The notes below the pieces were generated by a model that was given only the letters and a program-made list of their open reading frames with translations, had not been told where the DNA came from and did no database searches. This document shows positions 28,411-42,300 of a stretch of 64,000 nt of DNA, in pieces. This DNA is from Flavobacteriales bacterium. Lineage in GTDB: Bacteria; Bacteroidota; Bacteroidia; Flavobacteriales; Flavobacteriaceae. The first letter of the stretch is position 1. Each line of letters starts with the position of its first letter. The translations under genes and the position numbers were made by a program. Location of the stretch: the NCBI GenBank assembly GCA_024643405.1, contig JAHENA010000002.1:1-64000 (forward strand), written 5' to 3'.

Positions 28411-28454
28411 ATGACCAATATCATGTTATTAAATTTTCTATTCAATTAATTTTG
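28411..28454 (+). promoter_or_regulatory. CRP/FNR-type box plus -7 element upstream of hemN
   Basis: The box ATGACCAATATCAT (28411-28424) is followed after 22 bases by TAATTTTG (28447-28454), an exact TAnnTTTG match. The hemN ATG lies 17 bp further. Reading the box in the opposite direction gives no -7 element at the same distance, so control is directed at hemN and not at the divergent SOD gene. Confidence 0.75.
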
Positions 28455-28470: not shown

Positions 28471-29835
28471 ATGAACAAATCATTAGTAAATAAATATAAT
28501 ATTGCTGGTCCTCGTTATACCAGTTATCCAACCGTTCCGTATTGGAATGACAATACGTTTTCTGTTGAAAAATATAAGCAATCTTTAATTACATCATTTA
28601 ATGAAAGTAATGTTAAAGAAGGTATAAGTTTATATATACATATGCCTTTTTGTGAAAGTTTATGTACGTTTTGTGGGTGTAATAAAAGGATAACGAAACA
28701 GCATGATGTAGAAACACCTTATATAGAGTCTGTCTTAAAAGAATGGAATTTATATCTGGAATTGTTTGATGAAAAACCTATCATCAAGGAATTGCATCTT
28801 GGTGGCGGTACGCCAACATTTTTTAACCCAGAAAATTTACAAAAATTAATAAAAGGTATTTTGAAAGACTCAATTCTTGCAAAGGGCCATGAATTTAGTT
28901 TTGAAGGACATCCTAATAACACCACTCAAGCGCACTTACAAGCTTTATATGATGTTGGATTTAATCGTGTAAGCTTTGGGGTTCAAGATTATAATATTAC
29001 TGTGCAAAAGGCTATTCACAGAATTCAACCATTTGAAAATGTAAAGCGAGCAACAGAAATGGCAAGAGAAATTGGCTATTTATCTGTGGGACATGATATT
29101 ATTTTTGGATTGCCGTTTCAAACTTTAGAACATGTAGAACAAACTATCTTAAAAACAAAAGAACTAGCTCCAGACAGACTGGCTTTCTATAGTTATGCCC
29201 ATGTGCCATGGATTAAGGGAAATGGACAACGTGGTTTTAAGGATTCTGATTTACCAAAGGCTGAATTGAAGCGTCAGCAGTATGAATTGGGCAAGCAATT
29301 GCTAACGGAAGTGGGTTATCATGAAATAGGTATGGATCATTTTGCATTGCCTTCAGATTCCCTATATAAATCTATGCAAAAAAAGAGTTTACATAGAAAC
29401 TTCATGGGGTATACCGCTTCAAAAACACAAACGATGATTGGTCTAGGAGTTTCTTCGATTGGGGATAGCTGGTACGGATTTGGTCAAAATGTAAAAGTCA
29501 TAGAAGAGTATTATGATTTGTTAGAAAGAAATCAATTGCCAGTTTATCGAGGGCATATTTTAAATGAAGAAGATTTAGTAATAAGAAGACATATACTTAA
29601 TTTGATGTGTAGTTTTGAAACCTCCTGGGAATATGAACATATGTATTTTCCTGAAATTCCAGAGGTATTAATCAAGCTTAAGGAAATGGAACATGATGAG
29701 TTATTAGAGATTCATTCCAAATCAATTAATATTTTACCAAAAGGACAACCTTTTGTTAGAAATATATGTATGGCATTTGACTTGTTATTACAACGTAAAA
29801 CACCAGATGTACAGCTGTTTTCAATGACAGTTTAA
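28471..29835 (+). CDS. hemN: Oxygen-independent coproporphyrinogen III oxidase
   Basis: This 454-residue radical-SAM enzyme converts coproporphyrinogen III to protoporphyrinogen IX without oxygen. The 4Fe-4S cluster motif is C61-x3-C65-x2-C68 with Cys70 next (PFCESLCTFCGCNKR), typical of true HemN. SAM-binding segments include LHLGGGTPTFF and the RVSFGVQDYN region, with the HemN-specific second half (HVPWIKGNGQRGFK, IGMDHFALP). Length is normal for the family. It stands alone, with an FNR-type promoter, divergent from the SOD gene, next to the cbb3 oxidase block that needs heme at low oxygen. Confidence 0.95.
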   Translation: MNKSLVNKYNIAGPRYTSYPTVPYWNDNTFSVEKYKQSLITSFNESNVKEGISLYIHMPFCESLCTFCGCNKRITKQHDVETPYIESVLKEWNLYLELFDEKPIIKELHLGGGTPTFFNPENLQKLIKGILKDSILAKGHEFSFEGHPNNTTQAHLQALYDVGFNRVSFGVQDYNITVQKAIHRIQPFENVKRATEMAREIGYLSVGHDIIFGLPFQTLEHVEQTILKTKELAPDRLAFYSYAHVPWIKGNGQRGFKDSDLPKAELKRQQYELGKQLLTEVGYHEIGMDHFALPSDSLYKSMQKKSLHRNFMGYTASKTQTMIGLGVSSIGDSWYGFGQNVKVIEEYYDLLERNQLPVYRGHILNEEDLVIRRHILNLMCSFETSWEYEHMYFPEIPEVLIKLKEMEHDELLEIHSKSINILPKGQPFVRNICMAFDLLLQRKTPDVQLFSMTV

Positions 29836-33709: not shown

Positions 33710-35893
33710 TTATTCCTGAATATCTTTTACTTTAATATCTGTTCCTAATCGCTGCAAGTATGCTATCATGGCTACTATTTCACGGTTTTTCATTTCAACA
33801 AATGGTCTTCCATTTTGTGCTGCATTGTTTTTATCGGCTTCATAACTTGCAACAAAGTCAGGATCATTATAAAGGTTGCTTTCTATTTGAGTACCTTGAT
33901 CCAACATTTGTTGTTGCGCATTTGCAATTTCTTCGTCAGAGTATGGAACCCCAAGTGAAACCATTGTTTTCATTTTAGCTTCTGTTTGAGATTTGTCTAA
34001 TTCAGAGGTTACCAACCATTTATAATTTGGCATAATTGAACCACTTGAAGTACTTCTTGGGTCATACATGTGATTTAAATGCCAGTTATCTGAGTATTTC
34101 CCTCCTATACGGTGTAAATCTGGTCCGGTACGTTTGCTTCCCCATAAGAATGGATGGTCATAAACATATTCGCCGGCTTTAGAGTATTCTCCATAGCGTT
34201 CAACTTCACTTCTAAAAGGTCTAATCATTTGAGAGTGACAACCCACACAACCTTCACGTATATACAAATCGCGACCTTCAAGTTCAAGAGGTGTATAAGG
34301 TTTCACACTGGCTATAGTTGGAATATTAGATTTTACTAATATGGTTGGAACTATTTGAACTATACCGCCGATTAGAATCGCAATAGTCGCGAAAATGGTT
34401 AATTTAACAGGTTTGCGTTCTAACCAAGAATGCCATGCTTCACCTGCTAATCTATGTTTAGAAACACGCTCTAATGCAGGTGCTTCAGCAAGTTCATCAG
34501 TGACGGCGCTTCCAGATCTAATAGTTGCAATGATATTGTAAACTAAAATTAGCATACCAGTTAAATATAAAGTTCCGCCAATAGCACGCATCCAATACAT
34601 AGGAATAATTTCCGATACTGTTTCTAGGAAGTTACCATAGACTAAAGTACCATCAGGATTAAATTGTTTCCACATACTGGCTTGTGTAAACCCAGCAACG
34701 TACATTGGCAAGGCATACATTATGATACCTAAGGTACCTAGCCAGAAATGTAAATTAGCCAATCCTATCGAGAATAATTTAGTTTTAAATAATCTTGGCA
34801 CTAAATAATATATGATACCAAATGCCATAAAACCATTCCAGGCAAGTGCACCAACGTGCACGTGTGCAATAATCCAATCAGTAAAATGTGCAATAGCATT
34901 GACATTTTTTAATGATAAAGTAGGTCCTTCAAACGTGGCCATACCATAACCCGTAATGGCGACTACTAAAAATTTCAAAACAGGGTCAGTTCTTACTTTG
35001 TCCCATGCACCTCTAAGCGTTAATAATCCGTTTATCATACCACCCCAAGAAGGCATCAATAACATAACAGAAAAAGCGACACCTAAGTTTTGCGCCCATT
35101 CAGGAAGTGCGGTGTATAAAAGGTGATGAGGTCCTGCCCAGATATAGATAAAGATTAATGACCAGAAGTGAACAATAGAAAGTCTGTAGGAATATACAGG
35201 TCTATTGGCTGCTTTTGGAACAAAATAATACATTAAACCTAAGAAAGGCGTTGTTAAAAAGAAGGCTACGGCATTGTGGCCATACCACCATTGCACCAGC
35301 GCATCTTGAACCCCAGCATAAACGGAGTAAGATTTAAGAGCATTAACAGGAAGTTCTAAACTATTAAAAATATGGAGTACAGCTACTGTTACAAAAGTGG
35401 CTATATAAAACCAAATGGCAACATACAAATGGCGTTGTCTTCTCTTTAGAATGGTCCAAATCATATTAACACCAAAAACAACCCAAATTAATGCAATAGC
35501 AATATCAATAGGCCATTCTAATTCAGCATATTCTTTAGACGTTGAGTATCCTAACGGAAGCGAAATAGCAGCAGCAACAATTATAAGTTGCCAACCCCAA
35601 AAGTTAATATTACTTAAAAGGTCACTTGCCATACGCGTTTTTAATAAACGCTGTAATGAATAGTAAATACCGGCAAACATGGCATTTCCTACAAATGCAA
35701 AAATAACGGCATTGGTATGTAGAGGTCTTAAACGACCAAAACTTAGCCAAGATATGCCATCAGTCATGTTAGGGAATAAAAACATAAATGCGAGTATTAA
35801 ACCTACGAGCATTCCCACAACACCAAAAACTATTGTGGCATAAATGAATTTTGTAACGATTTTATTATCGTAATGAAATTGTTGCATTTCCAT
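33710..35893 (-). CDS. ccoNO: Fused cytochrome cbb3 oxidase subunits I and II (CcoNO)
   Basis: A 727-residue fusion. Residues 1-470 are CcoN, a 12-helix heme-copper oxidase core with heme and CuB ligand motifs RPLHTNAVIFAF, WWYGHNAVAFFLT, GPHHLLYTALPEW and AHVHVGALAW. A linker joins CcoO, with a membrane helix at about 500-520 and one c-type heme site, Cys549-Cys552-His553 (CVGCHSQMIRPFRSE). This fusion of subunits I and II is usual in Bacteroidota. The complex reduces O2 to water with high affinity and pumps protons. It follows ccoS by 11 bp and precedes ccoQ by 21 bp. Confidence 0.97.
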   Translation of the reverse strand: MEMQQFHYDNKIVTKFIYATIVFGVVGMLVGLILAFMFLFPNMTDGISWLSFGRLRPLHTNAVIFAFVGNAMFAGIYYSLQRLLKTRMASDLLSNINFWGWQLIIVAAAISLPLGYSTSKEYAELEWPIDIAIALIWVVFGVNMIWTILKRRQRHLYVAIWFYIATFVTVAVLHIFNSLELPVNALKSYSVYAGVQDALVQWWYGHNAVAFFLTTPFLGLMYYFVPKAANRPVYSYRLSIVHFWSLIFIYIWAGPHHLLYTALPEWAQNLGVAFSVMLLMPSWGGMINGLLTLRGAWDKVRTDPVLKFLVVAITGYGMATFEGPTLSLKNVNAIAHFTDWIIAHVHVGALAWNGFMAFGIIYYLVPRLFKTKLFSIGLANLHFWLGTLGIIMYALPMYVAGFTQASMWKQFNPDGTLVYGNFLETVSEIIPMYWMRAIGGTLYLTGMLILVYNIIATIRSGSAVTDELAEAPALERVSKHRLAGEAWHSWLERKPVKLTIFATIAILIGGIVQIVPTILVKSNIPTIASVKPYTPLELEGRDLYIREGCVGCHSQMIRPFRSEVERYGEYSKAGEYVYDHPFLWGSKRTGPDLHRIGGKYSDNWHLNHMYDPRSTSSGSIMPNYKWLVTSELDKSQTEAKMKTMVSLGVPYSDEEIANAQQQMLDQGTQIESNLYNDPDFVASYEADKNNAAQNGRPFVEMKNREIVAMIAYLQRLGTDIKVKDIQE

Positions 35894-35904
35894 AATTATA
35901 AAAA

Positions 35905-36090
35905 TTAATCTTTTTTGGTTAGTATTGATTTATTGGATTTTTCTTTGACAAGTTCGTCTTCAAACAACATGCGAACGGAAGGAGTATAGCTGTCATCAAA
36001 CTGCCCGTTTTTTACAGCAATAATAAAGGCTATAAAAAAAATAATAGCAACAATAATGCTTACTGTCAGCATTATATAAATGACACTCAT
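35905..36090 (-). CDS. ccoS: Cbb3 oxidase assembly protein CcoS
   Basis: A 61-residue protein with one N-terminal membrane helix (SVIYIMLTVSIIVAIIFFIA) followed by the CcoS signature VKNGQFDDSYTPSVRMLFEDE. CcoS is required for cofactor insertion into cbb3 oxidase. Here it is the first gene of the oxidase operon (ccoS-ccoNO-ccoQ-ccoP), and its promoter carries the best palindromic CRP/FNR-type box of the window. Confidence 0.92.
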   Translation of the reverse strand: MSVIYIMLTVSIIVAIIFFIAFIIAVKNGQFDDSYTPSVRMLFEDELVKEKSNKSILTKKD

Positions 36091-36110
36091 ACCTTGTTAT
36101 ATTTAAGTGT

Positions 36111-36154
36111 TAAAAATACTTTCATGGTTTATCTAATAAAATGATATATATCAT
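36111..36154 (-). promoter_or_regulatory. CRP/FNR-type box plus -7 element for ccoS-ccoNO operon
   Basis: The perfect palindrome ATGATATATATCAT (36141-36154) contains TGAT-N4-ATCA, the FNR core. On the minus strand, 22 bases later, TATTTTTA (36118 down to 36111) matches TAnnTTTG in 7 of 8 positions, 20 bp from the ccoS ATG. It lies in the 67-bp gap after ccoI. Confidence 0.75.
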
Positions 36155-36157
36155 GTT

Positions 36158-38533
36158 TTACTTTAATTTTCTTCCTGCTATGTTTGTTGAAAGTGTTGTA
36201 AATATAACGACGCTTATTGAGCTTAAAGGCATTAAAATAGCAGCAAAAACTGGTGACAATTGCCCTGTAATAGCAAAATAAAGACCAATAATATTATAAA
36301 TAAATGACATTAAAAAGCTCCATTTGATGATTTTTATTGCAGTTTTTGAAATATTTATGTAACGGTCTAATTGATTGAATTTTGAAGCGTCCAAGATGGC
36401 ATCGCAAGCAGGAGAAAATACATTGACGTTTTCTGAAATAGCAATGCCTACATTACTTTGGGCCAAGGCTCCTGCGTCATTTAATCCATCACCCATCATC
36501 AAAACATGTGCACCTTCACTTTGATGGTATTTTATATATTCCAATTTATCTTCAGGTTTTTGGTTAAATAATAGTTTTGTTTTGGCTGGTAATAATTTGG
36601 TTAAATTGCCTTTTTCACCTTCATTATCTCCAGAAAGAATTACTAGATCAAATTCTTTTTTTAGTTTATTAAATAAATTTGATAATCCTTTCCTGTAAGC
36701 ATTATAAAAAGTGAATTTCCCTTTATAGGTATTATTAGTGCTTAAATGAACTATTGTGTTTAAGGTAGCGTCCGCATTTGTGTAACCCACAAAAGGAGCA
36801 GACCCTATTTTTATTTGGGTTTCTTTGTATTGCCCTTCAATACCTTCACCAATATATTCCTGATAATTATCTAAAGAAATAATGTTATTATCATTCAGAA
36901 GCTCATATAAAGCGCGGCTTAATGGGTGGTTTGATCCTCTTAAAGTGCTTTTTAAAATTAATTCTTCTTCATTTGAGAGACTGGAACCTTCATAATTTAT
37001 TTTTGAGTTTTTATTTGATGTAATGGTCCCAGTTTTATCAAATATGATAGTGTCAATTTTAGCTAATTGTTCAATAACACTGGCATTTTTTAGATAGAAT
37101 TTTTTAGTTCCTAAAATGCGTAAAATGTTTCCAAATGTAAAAGGGGCCGAAAGTGCTAATGCACAAGGGCAGGCAATAATTAAGATGGCTGTAAATACAT
37201 TTAAAGCTTTACTGGAATCAGCAAAAAGCCAAAAGCTGGTAGAAATGATAGCAATAGATAAAATGGCTATTGTAAAATATTTACTGATACTATTTGTGAT
37301 GGTTGTGAAGGATTTCTCTTTATCTGTCTTAAAAACGTCATTACTCCATAATTGTGTTAAATAACTTTGTTCTACAGATTTTAAAACATCAACTTCAATA
37401 ATACCATCCAGTTGTTTACCACCAGCAAAAAGTTTATCGCCCGAGTTTTTTGAGACTGCTTTAGCTTCTCCTGTTACAAAACTATAATCTATACGTGCTT
37501 TTCCTTTTATTAAAATACAATCAGTAGGAATTAATTCTTCATTTCTTATTAAAAGTCTGTCCCCTTTTTCAATCTCATAAACTTGTATAGATTCTTCTAT
37601 TCCATTAGGTAATATTTTAGTAATTCCTATAGGGAAATAGGATTTATAATCGCGCTCAAAAGACAGGAATGAATATGTCTTTTGCTGAAAAAATCTTCCT
37701 AGTAACAGAAAGAAAACAAGTCCTGTAAGGCTATCAAAAAAGCCCGGACCAATATCATATATTATTTCTATAGAACTTCTAATAAACAAAACAAAGATTC
37801 CTAATGCTATTGGTACATCGATGTTTAATATTTTAGACCGTAAGCCTTTGTAAGCTGAAATAAAATATTCTTGTGCTGAATAAAAAACGACAGGAATAGA
37901 ATAAGAAAACATGAGCCACCTAAATAGCGATTTATATTGTTCAAGCCAAAACTCATTCACTTCAAAATACTCAGGAAAGGATAAAAACATCACATTTCCA
38001 AAAGCAAATCCTGCAAATCCAAGTTTATATATTAAGGAGCGGTCAATATTTTTCTTACTAGGACTATAATCGTCTAAACTAATAAACGGTTCATAGCCTA
38101 TACTATTTAATAGGATAACTAAATTTTTTAATGAAAGTGATTCAGAATTAAATGATATCCTCACGTTCTTTTTTCCAAAGTTTACAATGGATGTACTAAC
38201 TGCAGAATGAATTTTATTTAAATTTTCTAACACCCAAATGCAAGAGCTGCAATGGATATGGGGAATGTACAGGGTAATTATCTGTGTTTTACCATCATTA
38301 AATTCAAGTAATTTTTCAACAATCTTATCATTATCCAAAAAATTATATTTGCCTTCAATTTCTTTGGGAGTAGAACCTGGAGATTGCTGAAAATCATAAT
38401 AACAGGTTAAATCATTGGTCGAAAAAATTTCATACACAGTTTTGCAGCCATTGCAGCAAAAAAACTTATCATCAAATATGATTTCAGATTTTTTTGTGTC
38501 TAAACCACAGTGGAAACAAGTATGGTGTTCCAT
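36158..38533 (-). CDS. ccoI: Copper-translocating P1B-ATPase CcoI
   Basis: A 791-residue heavy-metal P-type ATPase from ATG 38533. The N-terminus carries a Cys-rich zinc-binding segment (CFHCGLDTKK, FFCCNGCKTVY), then a heavy-metal-associated domain with HIHCSSCIWVLENL. Membrane helices follow, with the ion site CPC in IIACPCALALS, the phosphorylation motif DKTGT (IIFDKTGTITS), and the MMGDGLNDAGAL hinge. CcoI exports copper for the cbb3 active site. A longer frame to 38584 would run into the promoter region, so the start at 38533 is preferred. It is transcribed alone from the bidirectional FNR-type promoter. Confidence 0.94.
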   Translation of the reverse strand: MEHHTCFHCGLDTKKSEIIFDDKFFCCNGCKTVYEIFSTNDLTCYYDFQQSPGSTPKEIEGKYNFLDNDKIVEKLLEFNDGKTQIITLYIPHIHCSSCIWVLENLNKIHSAVSTSIVNFGKKNVRISFNSESLSLKNLVILLNSIGYEPFISLDDYSPSKKNIDRSLIYKLGFAGFAFGNVMFLSFPEYFEVNEFWLEQYKSLFRWLMFSYSIPVVFYSAQEYFISAYKGLRSKILNIDVPIALGIFVLFIRSSIEIIYDIGPGFFDSLTGLVFFLLLGRFFQQKTYSFLSFERDYKSYFPIGITKILPNGIEESIQVYEIEKGDRLLIRNEELIPTDCILIKGKARIDYSFVTGEAKAVSKNSGDKLFAGGKQLDGIIEVDVLKSVEQSYLTQLWSNDVFKTDKEKSFTTITNSISKYFTIAILSIAIISTSFWLFADSSKALNVFTAILIIACPCALALSAPFTFGNILRILGTKKFYLKNASVIEQLAKIDTIIFDKTGTITSNKNSKINYEGSSLSNEEELILKSTLRGSNHPLSRALYELLNDNNIISLDNYQEYIGEGIEGQYKETQIKIGSAPFVGYTNADATLNTIVHLSTNNTYKGKFTFYNAYRKGLSNLFNKLKKEFDLVILSGDNEGEKGNLTKLLPAKTKLLFNQKPEDKLEYIKYHQSEGAHVLMMGDGLNDAGALAQSNVGIAISENVNVFSPACDAILDASKFNQLDRYINISKTAIKIIKWSFLMSFIYNIIGLYFAITGQLSPVFAAILMPLSSISVVIFTTLSTNIAGRKLK

Positions 38534-38562
38534 AAATTTATTTACTCCTTTTGTACCTTTTG

Positions 38563-38636
38563 CAAATATTTCAAAGATAACCAAATTGAAATATGATATA
38601 TGTCATGTTTATAAAATATGATAATTGTTAGGTTTT
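38563..38636. promoter_or_regulatory. Bidirectional CRP/FNR-type promoter: ccoI and crp/fnr gene
   Basis: One box, ATGATATATGTCAT (38593-38606), serves both directions. On the plus strand, 22 bases later, TAGGTTTT (38629-38636) faces the Crp/Fnr gene. On the minus strand, 22 bases later, AATATTTG (38570 down to 38563) faces ccoI. Each octamer matches TAnnTTTG in 7 of 8 positions, so the regulator gene is probably autoregulated together with ccoI. Confidence 0.7.
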
Positions 38637-38666
38637 AATTAATTTTACAGTCCTTTAAATTATACT

Positions 38667-39344
38667 ATGGGTAAGTGTGAACAATGTATTATCAAACAAT
38701 TTAATTCTCTTAAGACTTTGACAAACGAAGAATTAGTGAGAATCTCTAATTGTAAAACCTCCAGAATAGTTAAAAAAGGGGAGGTCATTTTTGAAGAAGG
38801 TGAGACATTAAAAGGTGTTTATTGTGTAAGAGACGGCATATGTAAACTCACTAAATTAAGTTCAAACGGAAAAGATCAGATAATAAAATTAGTGGTTAAA
38901 GGAGAGTTACTCGGTCAGCGTTCATTAGTAAGCGATGAAAGCGTGAATCTTAGTGCCATTGCCTTAAATGATATGGAATTGTGTTTTATTCCAAAAACTG
39001 AAATTATGATTGATCTTCAAAAAAACACCAATTTTACTTATGATTTATTAAAGGAGATGGCCATAGATTTAAAAGAAGCGGATGATATTATTGTAAATAT
39101 GGCTCAAAAATCGGTGAGACAGCGTTTAGCTGAAACCTTAATTTATATTAATGATAGTTTCGGGACCAAATCTGACGGTACTTTAAGCGTCTTGTTGTCA
39201 AGAGAAGATTTTGCAAATATTATTGGGACCGCAACCGAATCAACGATTAGAGTGATTTCTCAATTTAAAAAAGAAAGACTAATTACTACTATAGGCAAGC
39301 AAATTAAAATAATTGATATAGAAGGTTTAAAACGTGTAGAATAA
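38667..39344 (+). CDS. Crp/Fnr family transcriptional regulator (FNR-like)
   Basis: A 225-residue regulator with a cyclic-nucleotide-like beta-roll (about 30-135) and a winged HTH (about 150-215, with LLSREDFANIIGTATESTIR). In the recognition helix Glu191 and Arg195 match the two conserved DNA-contact positions of CRP/FNR. Cys4 and Cys7 in KCEQC, Cys29, and Cys106 in MELCFIPK could bind a 4Fe-4S cluster, though the spacing differs from Escherichia coli FNR (C20-x2-C23-x5-C29, C122). It is divergent from ccoI and shares an FNR-type box with it, so it is the prime candidate regulator of the cbb3-hemN-ppdK-tonB set. Confidence 0.88.
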   Translation: MGKCEQCIIKQFNSLKTLTNEELVRISNCKTSRIVKKGEVIFEEGETLKGVYCVRDGICKLTKLSSNGKDQIIKLVVKGELLGQRSLVSDESVNLSAIALNDMELCFIPKTEIMIDLQKNTNFTYDLLKEMAIDLKEADDIIVNMAQKSVRQRLAETLIYINDSFGTKSDGTLSVLLSREDFANIIGTATESTIRVISQFKKERLITTIGKQIKIIDIEGLKRVE

Positions 39345-39361
39345 TCTTAATATGATTTAAT

Positions 39362-39393
39362 AAAAAAAGCTCTGAATTTTCAGAGCTTTTTTT
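39362..39393. terminator. Bidirectional intrinsic terminator
   Basis: A 13-bp stem (39362-39374 with 39381-39393), A-rich on one outer side and T-rich on the other, with a 6-base loop. It serves the convergent Crp/Fnr gene and BNR-repeat gene. Confidence 0.9.
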
Positions 39394-39396
39394 GTT

Positions 39397-42300
39397 TTAA
39401 TCTATTTTAAAGGATTTTATTTCTTTAAATGGATTAATTTGTAATTGCTCCATTTTTACCTGATAAGGGTTCCATATTTCTGTAAAAAATTTATTGGTTT
39501 TATCTAAAGCATTATTTAATGCATCTTTAGCATTTGTTATTAATGTAATTTCTGTTGAAGTTAATCCATTTTGTCTGGAACTCACGTAACTTTTAGCAAG
39601 TCCTATTCGCTGATTTACGGTTATTTCAGGATCGCGCGTGATGCCCTGACGTTTATCTTCTTTCCCTAAATAAATATTAATAATTTCATCAATTTGTTTA
39701 ATAATGTCTTTGGAAGATTTTATCTCAATTTCGTATTGGTCTTTATCAAGTTTCTTCAAGTCGGTTTGAAATTTTTCTGCAATTTGTTTGCTTTCAATCA
39801 ATTGTTTAACGGCATCATAAACAGACTGCTGCATAGTTTCTATATTTTTAGAAGCAGTATAAACTTCATCAATATTATTTAGTGATACATCAAGTCTTGG
39901 GTCAGTCTTGACTAAAATCATTTTTTCTGAAATCTGGTCGCCATAAGAAATGGTTACTTTATAGTTTCCAGGTTTTACGGTTACACCGCCTGGTTCTCTA
40001 TTTCTTTTATTTTCCTTTCTGGAAGGTCTTTCTACTCCTGCTTCATCAAGAGACCAAGTTATTCTATTAATGCCAGTGGAATCAGGCGCTTTTTCTTTAA
40101 GAGTTCTAATTAAACGATTACCATCATAAACCATCAATTTAATAGAATCCCACTTCACTTGACCCTCTTCTTTTTCTTTGGTTTCAACATCGTCATCTTC
40201 GTCTTCATTTCCATCTTCAACTTTCTTTTTATCCGTATCCTCTGTTTTCTTTTCATCAATAGTAATATAATAAGATAATTGAGCGCCCGCTTTTCGGTTT
40301 TCACCATTAAACATATCATCAGCACCAAATCGACTTCCCGTCGGTTGCTGATAAGCCGCTAAATAGGCTGTTGGAGGTGTGAACAGTTCTAACTTTTGCT
40401 TAAGAATTTCTTTATTTTTTGCTAGTGCTCGTAAAGGCTTAATATCATCAAGTACCCAAGCAGCTCTGCCAAAAGTCCCTATTACTAAATCATTTTCTCT
40501 TGGATGAATTATTAGGTCTTTCACTGAAACCGTAGGAAAGCCGGCCGTCCATTTAGTCCATTTATTTCCTGCGTCTAATGAAATATAAAGACCGTCATCG
40601 GATCCTAAAAACATCAAATTGGGTTCTTCAGAATCTTCAAGGATACAGAGGGCATAACTCTTCACATCATTTTCATCAACAATTCGTTCCCAATTTTTAC
40701 CATAATCTTTGGTTCTGAAAGCATAGGGTGTATAATTAAAACGTCTGTAGTCATTAGCTATTAATAAGGCTTCACCTTTATTTCTATTAGATGCTTTTAT
40801 TTGTGGAATCCAACTTCCTTGAGGCAATCCTTTAATATTCTTAGAGACGTCCGTCCAGCTAGCACCGCCATTTTTGGTGATTTGTACCTTGCCATCATCT
40901 GTTCCTACCCAAATCATATCTTTTTCAATTGGCGAAGGTTCAATTACAATTATGGTTGTATAGTTTTCTGCACCGGTAGCATCCATGGTAAGACCACCAC
41001 TTTGATCTTGTTTTTGTTTTTCAGGATCATTAGTAGTTAAATCTGGAGATATAATTGACCAGGTCTCTCCTTTATCAATCGATTTATGAACAAACTGACT
41101 TCCAAAATAAATGGTACTAGTATTAAAAGGATCCATATTAATAGCTGCATTCCAATTGAATCTTAATTCAATATTTGGATCAGGGTGTGTGGGCCTTACA
41201 ATATAATTGTTTCCAGTTTGCCAGTCATATCTGCTAACATAACCTTGTTGGCTCATAGACCAGCCAAATCTGGAGTTCTCTTTATCCGGAACCACATCAA
41301 AACCATCACCAAAGCTTATTTCTTGCCAATAAGAGTTTCTTATTCCCTGTGCTTTCCATACATAAGCAGGACCTCTCCATGAGCCATTATCTTGCATACC
41401 GCCATATACGTTATAAGGATATTCATTATCAATGGCAATATGATAGAACTGTCCAACGGGAAGATTTCCAATAAAACGCCATGACTTACCGCCGTCTTTA
41501 GTAATATTCATGCCGCCATCATTACCATCAATCATAAAGTTTCCGTTTGTTGGATGTATCCAGAAGGCATGATGGTCAGGATGAACTCCATTATCAGCAC
41601 CATAAGAAGGCATTAACTGAGTGAATTTTTTTCCACCATCTTCACTTACATTGATATAGGTAAAAACTGAGTAAACTCTGTTCTCATTTTGTGGATCTAC
41701 ATGTAATTCAGAATAATAAAAAGGTCTGTCGCCAATATCGTCATTCTCATTTATTTTTTCCCATTTAAAACCACCATCCACACTTTTATACAAGGCATTT
41801 TTTTTAGCTTCTACTAAAGCATAAATGATATTGGGTTTATTTCTTGCGATGGCAACCCCAATACGTCCCAGGTTTCCTTTTGGAAAACCATCATTGTCAT
41901 CTATTTTATGCCATGATTTTCCACCATCATGAGTTAGAAACAAGCCTGAGCCTTCTCCACCAGAATTAAAAAACCAGGGATCTCTTTTATGTTCCCACAT
42001 AGCGGCGATTAATTTATTTGGATTGGTTGGATCCATAATTAAATCAGCTGCTCCAGATTTATTATTGGTAAATAATATTTTATTCCAAGTTTGTCCGCCA
42101 TCTATTGTTTTAAATATGCCTCTTTCAGGATGTTCACCCCAAGGGGAACCAATGGCAGCAACATAAATAATAGCTGGATTATTAGGGTCAATGACTATTC
42201 TATGAATATGACGTGTTTTTTCTAAACCCATTGAAATCCAATTTTTTCCTCCATCTAATGATTTGTATATACCATACCCGCCATTCAAACTGTTTCTTGG

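Follow-up and report, generated by a model that had tools for sequence, protein, structure and literature searches.

A putative asymmetric control region between divergent fnr and ccoI genes of a flavobacterium, with predicted activation of ccoI and repression of fnr

The fnr-ccoI locus, its regulator and the loci compared

The stretch of DNA analysed here (64,000 nucleotides; referred to below as the window) originates from a flavobacterium with a G+C content of 33%. It contains, as a divergent pair, a gene for an Fnr-type regulator (fnr) and a gene for a heavy-metal P-type ATPase, which is named ccoI because of its context, viz. next to fused ccoNO and ccoP, and which would serve in the assembly of a high-affinity respiratory oxidase. 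The predicted main operator, box 1, is located in the region between the two genes. The features of this region are listed in Table 1, along with two further boxes of the class II type present elsewhere in the window. A scan for promoters of the E. coli sigma-70 type gave no excess (3 versus 2.1 ± 1.8 in shuffles), and an Rfam scan of positions 35000-40000 gave no match.

Table 1. Genes, predicted operators, octamers and transcription starts in the window
Feature	Position	Strand	Remarks
fnr-type regulator gene	38667-39344	+	225 aa; cNMP_binding and HTH_Crp_2
ccoI, heavy-metal P-type ATPase gene	36158-38533	-	791 aa; ATG at 38533; adjoins cbb3 oxidase genes
Box 1, ATGATATATGTCAT, main Fnr-type operator (predicted)	38593-38606		ATGAY-N4-RTCAT; centre at -41.5 relative to the predicted start of ccoI
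Box 2, ATGATAATTGTTAG, degenerate second operator (predicted)	38618-38631		25 bp from box 1; ATGAT of the left half retained
ccoI -7 octamer, AATATTTG	38563-38570	-	5/6; 22 nt from box 1
Predicted ccoI transcription start	38558	-	Octamer at -12 to -5, after PMC9723704
fnr -7 octamer, TAATTTTA	38640-38647	+	8 nt after box 2
Predicted fnr transcription start	38652	+	Geometry taken as for ccoI
Originally proposed fnr octamer, TAGGTTTT	38629-38636	+	5/6; unsupported as a -7 element
Perfect palindromic box, ATGATATATATCAT	36141-36154		Upstream of a ccoS-like 61-aa ORF and ccoNO
Octamer TATTTTTA	36111-36118	-	5/6; 22 nt from the 36141 box
Box before hemN-like gene	28411-28424		ATG at 28471; hemN by inspection
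Octamer TAATTTTG	28447-28454	+	6/6; 22 nt from the 28411 box

The scores of the regulator for the cNMP_binding fold and for HTH_Crp_2 exceed the curated Pfam cut-offs. When its profile was compared with the PDB, the top match was the Crp/Fnr-family structure 2gau (4.3e-39), and the solved FNR 5cvr was matched at 2.7e-33; the top NCBIfam model is that of Fnr (PRK11161), with a score of 86 bits that is under the cut-off of 228 for this model. In E. coli FNR, the cysteines of the cluster are C20, C23, C29 and C122. This set of four is incomplete in the regulator, in which three of them have C4, C7 and C106 as their counterparts in the alignment and the position of C29 is not a cysteine; among 140 Fnr orthologues this position is N13 in 132 and S in the remaining 8. 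The residues C4, C7, C53 and C106 are invariant in all 140 orthologues. Possibly, these orthologues use a different set of cluster ligands, which includes C53. Two Crp-type paralogues in the same genome (L096, C123; L102, C49) have similar recognition helices, ATETLIR and ASETFVR, compared with ATESTIR in the regulator. Judging from this similarity, at least two paralogues may also use the boxes described here, including box 1.

The genus to which the window belongs is that of Yeosuana aromativorans, and in six other genomes of this genus Fnr is 88-94% identical to that of the window. The nearest named records are a Tobar MAG (Fnr 91%) and Y. aromativorans (Fnr 90%), and the upstream regions of both are identical to loci of the genus set.

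A match was obtained in 103 of 120 genomes from the family, and 69 loci (46-100% identity) were taken, in 65 of which ccoI is located beside fnr. From these 69 loci, an evenly drawn set of 58 was obtained by dropping those with no adjacent ccoI or in which no ccoI ATG was found, as well as those in which the box scored less than 9/10 or its distance from ccoI fell outside the range of 40 to 80 nt. A larger set was derived from 155 loci, which after the removal of 15 identical ones left 140 distinct loci; 7 of these (L026, L027, L030, L039, L177, L180 and L203) were dropped for want of an adjacent ccoI, leaving 133. As 80 of the 155 loci had been taken as best matches, the 133-locus set leans to close relatives.

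The operator motif and its fixed distance from the -7 octamer

With two mismatches or fewer allowed, the E. coli-like motif shows no enrichment in the window (300 matches versus 274 ± 23 in shuffles). The motif ATGAY-N4-RTCAT is enriched genome-wide, with 59 sites compared with 21 for the control with the reversed pattern. Box 1 (ATGATATATGTCAT), which on the minus strand is two mismatches off TTGAY-N4-ATCAA, is a 10/10 box in all seven congeneric genomes. Recognition of TTGAT-N4-ATCAA by this regulator does not appear to apply: the enriched site is ATGAY-N4-RTCAT, and the recognition helix has E..IR rather than E..SR.

According to the original prediction, box 1 is flanked 22 nt away on each side by a -7-like octamer, and this description of the sequence is borne out, each octamer being a 5/6 match to TAnnTTTG. 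In shuffles preserving composition, the chance that both fixed places carry octamers of at least 5/6 is about 0.0003, a value for places that were picked after looking, and a single fixed place attains 5/6 in about 2% of the shuffles. This last number leaves some room for the reading that the octamers and their spacings are chance occurrences in AT-rich DNA, and the distribution of the boxes elsewhere bears upon it.

For the boxes of the same genome, 50 of the 59 were listed, and the 31 of these located outside long open frames were counted as intergenic. Of the 62 sides of these 31 boxes, 28 have at exactly 22 nt an octamer that matches TAnnTTTG at 5/6 or better, of which 8 are perfect and two belong to the site under test; with this site excluded, the number becomes 26 of 60. 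The background of such octamers elsewhere is 0.014 per position, giving for 28/62 a binomial P of about 2e-35. For the other 19 listed boxes, which are inside open frames, a 22-nt octamer is found on 2 of 38 sides. Across 60 genomes of the family, a perfect octamer is located at 22 nt from a box 240 times, and once for the reversed pattern; at the control offsets in the same genomes, it is found 3 times at 28 nt and 6 times at 8 nt, with 4 of the latter 6 at the fnr locus (the numbers 240, 3 and 6 are sums of the forward and reverse columns). Since the fixed offsets recur over the genome and, as described below, over orthologous loci, chance is a scarcely credible explanation of this geometry overall; it is already refuted for the ccoI octamer, and it would stand for TAGGTTTT.

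The neighbours of the 22-nt boxes in this genome include genes of low-oxygen metabolism. By inspection, the genes beside such boxes include hemN, a ccoS-like ORF, keto-acid:ferredoxin oxidoreductases and hydrogenase hyaA/hypA, and further those for pyruvate phosphate dikinase, PEP carboxykinase and a UspA protein. In class II activation the operator is centred at -41.5. In Flavobacterium psychrophilum, according to PMC9723704, the -7 box spans positions -12 to -5, and a box 22 nt away from it would therefore have its centre at -41.5. The rule of 22 nt from ATGAY-N4-RTCAT to TAnnTTTG thus predicts activating boxes in Flavobacteriaceae, a family for which no described Fnr regulon was found in our search of open-access literature.

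In four of the 30 intergenic boxes besides the site under test (among the 50 of 59 boxes listed), the octamer is present at 22 nt on both sides, and in 22 of the 30 on at least one side. If the second side were due to chance, 0.3 such double cases would be expected (P about 2e-4). In all four cases the flanking ORFs read away from the box. By inspection, these boxes are located between genes for ferredoxin/keto-acid oxidoreductase (L009:2124), cytochrome c/Rrf2 regulator (L128:501), hypA/hyaA (L130:501) and CBS-domain/small protein (L138:501), and they are candidates for true two-way class II control sites. Further, two perfect boxes that are 43 bp apart (L009:1501 and L009:1544) are present upstream of a pyruvate:ferredoxin oxidoreductase-like gene, and neither of them has a 5/6 octamer at 22 nt.

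The ccoI side of the region

The octamer AATATTTG, originally proposed as the -7-like element of ccoI, has stood up well to comparison with other genomes. An octamer of 5/6 is located at exactly 22 nt from box 1 in all seven genomes of the genus, and at this distance the octamer is found in 51 of the 58 evenly drawn family loci. Of the 133 loci in the larger set, 122 have an octamer of at least 5/6 at exactly 22 nt, and 128 have one at 21-23 nt. A chance origin of the ccoI octamer is therefore rejected, as the same offset recurs over orthologous loci and over the genome. Its form is mostly AnnTTTG, and because T is found at the first position in only 3% of the 122 rows, the ccoI octamer departs from the full TAnnTTTG consensus; as the rows used for such base frequencies were preselected for an octamer at the given offset, these frequencies are no test of octamer conservation. 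Relative to the predicted start, the operator is centred near -41.5 of ccoI, viz. at the class II position, and a dimer bound to box 1 should on this ground activate ccoI.

The predicted start at 38558 is the A of a conserved AGGTA leader, and its placement on the A of this leader (AGGTATAAATGAGCAAA) fits a true start at that place. In relatives, the leader is conserved as GAGCAAA in 73 of 106 and as GGTA in 88 of 106, and the copy in the window (38558-38534, minus strand) has diverged. By eye, the conserved leader resembles the beginning of fnr in some relatives. The possibility that AGGTATAAATGAGCAAA is a general element was considered and rejected: a match with at most one mismatch was found in 18 of 80 genomes, and none in the genome of the window. 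Based on their coordinates, 11 of the 18 matches are beside fnr and 6 are elsewhere, and the remaining one (in G061) immediately precedes a ccoI gene separated from fnr.

The fnr side and the duplicated operator

In all seven genomes of the genus, two boxes are present 25 bp apart, and boxes 1 and 2 represent a diverged 25-bp duplication. In a tree of Fnr (quick search, midpoint root), the duplicated form is accounted for by one change (SH-aLRT 100). The right half of box 2 (ATGATAATTGTTAG) is degenerate in all seven, with the C of GTCAT lost in six, and due to this box 2 may not bind the regulator. The left half, ATGAT, together with the preceding AAAT, is invariant in all seven. One may suppose from the first of these facts that box 2 is a decayed copy, that fnr is essentially constitutive in this genus, and that the left half has been kept as a part of a -33 region. 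However, the invariant left half is most easily explained if a protein still binds there, and we regard outright decay as unlikely.

The octamer TAGGTTTT, which had been assigned to fnr, is made up of the final three bases of box 2 and the flanking sequence. Its position reaches at least 5/6 in only two of the seven congeneric genomes, viz. that of the window itself and L089. Starting 11 nt beyond it is a competing, conserved octamer, TAATTTTA, which is at least 5/6 in all seven and 6/6 in two of them; as TAATTT[TA][AG], it is located 8 nt after box 2 and 33 nt after box 1 in all seven genomes. Both box 2 and TAATTTTA had been overlooked in the original prediction. On account of its restriction to two genomes and of its being box 2 sequence, TAGGTTTT is rejected as the -7 element of fnr, and in the fnr-ccoI region of the window a conserved -7 octamer at activating distance is found on one side only.

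In the evenly drawn loci, the fnr octamer is located 8-10 nt from the box in 39 of 58 (33 loci have it at exactly 8 nt, 11 of them with a perfect match, and 6 others at 9 or 10 nt), and other offsets account for about one locus each. An octamer at 22 nt on this side is seen in 9 of 57 loci, six of them perfect and one being the window itself. In the larger set, the distance is 8-10 nt in 104 of the 133 loci and 22 nt alone in 7 (one of them doubtful); of the rest, 13 show neither geometry, 2 are without a clear box and 7 are those of the window's genus. The last G of the octamer is an A in 56% of 94 rows, which were preselected for the 8-nt octamer. The loci with a perfect TAnnTTTG at 22 nt on the fnr side are L051, L058, L062, L064, L065 and L071, one per genus; the seventh, L053, is the doubtful one, its octamer being 5/6 and its box 224 nt from ccoI. 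The 22-nt form on the fnr side corresponds to 4 changes in the Fnr tree, though it may have had a single origin.

In a few loci other genes are inserted between fnr and ccoI, viz. a PAS-histidine kinase, a response-regulator-Crp fusion and a UspA gene in L232 and L234, and a second Crp match in L233. In all three, the box stays beside ccoI, and in L232 and L234, but not in L233, it is the inserted genes that the 8-nt octamer now faces.

If box 1 were a symmetric class II site for both genes, fnr would be autoactivated, with a start near 38641 served by TAGGTTTT. The 5/6 octamers at 22 nt on both sides of box 1, the four other boxes of this genome with the same arrangement between divergent ORFs, and the perfect octamers at 22 nt in six other fnr loci speak in favour of such an arrangement, and show that one box with two divergent 22-nt octamers does occur. 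However, it is not upheld at this locus, where TAGGTTTT is made of box 2 sequence and lacks conservation, a conserved octamer competes with it, and the relatives mostly have the fnr octamer 8-10 nt from the box; we consider the symmetric interpretation improbable here. The original prediction that one bound dimer activates both genes thus retains its ccoI half, by the 22-nt rule, but loses its fnr half, as TAGGTTTT is unconserved and the kept octamer is 33 nt off. Its corollary, that the regulator activates its own synthesis, runs against the 8-10 nt distance, which predicts occlusion.

It can also be envisaged that box 1 activates fnr from -52.5 and that the weak box 2 represses it once the regulator is abundant, but E. 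coli CRP activates poorly from -52.5, and the distance from box 1 to TAATTTTA is 33 nt and not the 22 nt that is outstanding in this genome, so that box 1 does not occupy an activating position for fnr. This dual control is in keeping with the finding that an fnr-type gene is preceded here by two boxes that differ in quality, and it has a precedent in Rhizobium fnrN, which is activated from its distal anaerobox and repressed from its proximal one (PMC7888657); in the present case we think it rather doubtful. FnrN-like dual control and the outright decay of box 2 are the most serious rivals of the interpretation developed below.

Proposed mechanism and its significance

The interpretation that we favour, by a modest degree, is that of an asymmetric divergent region, in which box 1 activates ccoI and box 2 represses fnr, these two functions having been split by duplication of the operator. 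From the observed 22-nt geometry and its conservation, we infer that at low oxygen a dimer of the Fnr-type regulator on box 1, at -41.5, would activate ccoI, just as would occur at the remaining class II promoters in this genome, both the activation and the oxygen signal being parts of this inference. Transcription of fnr would begin from TAATTTTA. Box 2 would then be centred at -27.5 of fnr (-34 to -21), where a bound dimer would exclude RNA polymerase, a repression that is predicted from position alone, and the regulator would thereby restrain its own synthesis.

For most members of the family, a single box would serve both genes, its distance from the octamer being 22 nt on the ccoI side and about 8 nt on the fnr side. 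The 8-nt spacing places the box over about -34 to -21, so that a bound dimer should block polymerase; by this reckoning, the operator overlaps the predicted polymerase site of its own gene in most relatives, and box 2 does likewise in degenerate form. With the box of the relatives covering the fnr promoter, a negative effect of the regulator on its own gene is more likely than a positive one. In the genus of the window, the 25-bp duplication would have given each promoter its own copy, partly uncoupling the two promoters, and the fnr copy would later have decayed in its right half. Because this half is degenerate, autorepression of fnr in this genus is probably weak. In comparison with the original prediction, the predicted start of fnr is moved by 11 nt and the predicted sign of its autoregulation is reversed.

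A broader interpretation, for which the arguments on either side appear to us evenly balanced, is that the family operator is an antagonistic switch of fixed geometry, in which small moves have changed the sign of the feedback or the coupling. If this is true, the operator at -41.5 activates ccoI and at about -27.5 represses fnr, so that more regulator leads to more oxidase assembly and to less regulator; in six genera, autorepression has become autoactivation through an fnr octamer located 14 bp further off; and the 25-bp duplication in the genus of the window splits the two functions of the operator. The promoter regions of this family would then constitute natural variants, in which the sign of the feedback should differ with the 14-bp shift.

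Comparison with known systems

As in class II activation by E. coli FNR and CRP, the palindrome of box 1 is placed at -41.5, here by way of the 22 nt to the -7 octamer; the half-site is TTGAT in E. coli and ATGAY here, and the -7 element here is the TAnnTTTG of Bacteroidota. El-Robh and Busby (2002) reportedly found that E. coli CRP activates divergent promoters from one target. This arrangement, with one site and two promoters, corresponds to the symmetric model originally proposed, whereas here a conserved octamer at the activating distance is present only on the ccoI side. Control of divergent genes from one operator by CRP/FNR-family regulators is thus of a kind already known; for the family-wide fixed layout of 22 and 8 nt, and its changes in individual lineages, no description was found in open-access text.

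With F. psychrophilum, the TAnnTTTG -7 box is held in common, and its cbb3 oxidase is up-regulated under oxygen limitation (PMC9723704); in the main text of that paper "crp" gives 0 matches, and the literature search counted 0 occurrences of "fnr". In R. leguminosarum, two regulator boxes are likewise located upstream of fnrN, and the proximal one represses; in the accessible part of PMC7888657, fnrN is not described as divergent from ccoI, and its distal box activates fnrN. Unlike that distal anaerobox, box 1 is not at the activating distance of its own genome from the fnr octamer. The arrangement proposed here has its counterpart at cmr-rv1676 of M. tuberculosis, where, according to PMC5499769, a single site for the CRP/FNR-family regulator Cmr separates cmr from rv1676, and from this site rv1676 is activated and one promoter of cmr is repressed. 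Cmr differs in that it activates a second promoter of its own gene (PMC5499769), and it belongs to another phylum and responds to another signal; the likeness lies in a single intergenic site that turns the divergent gene up and the regulator's own promoter down.
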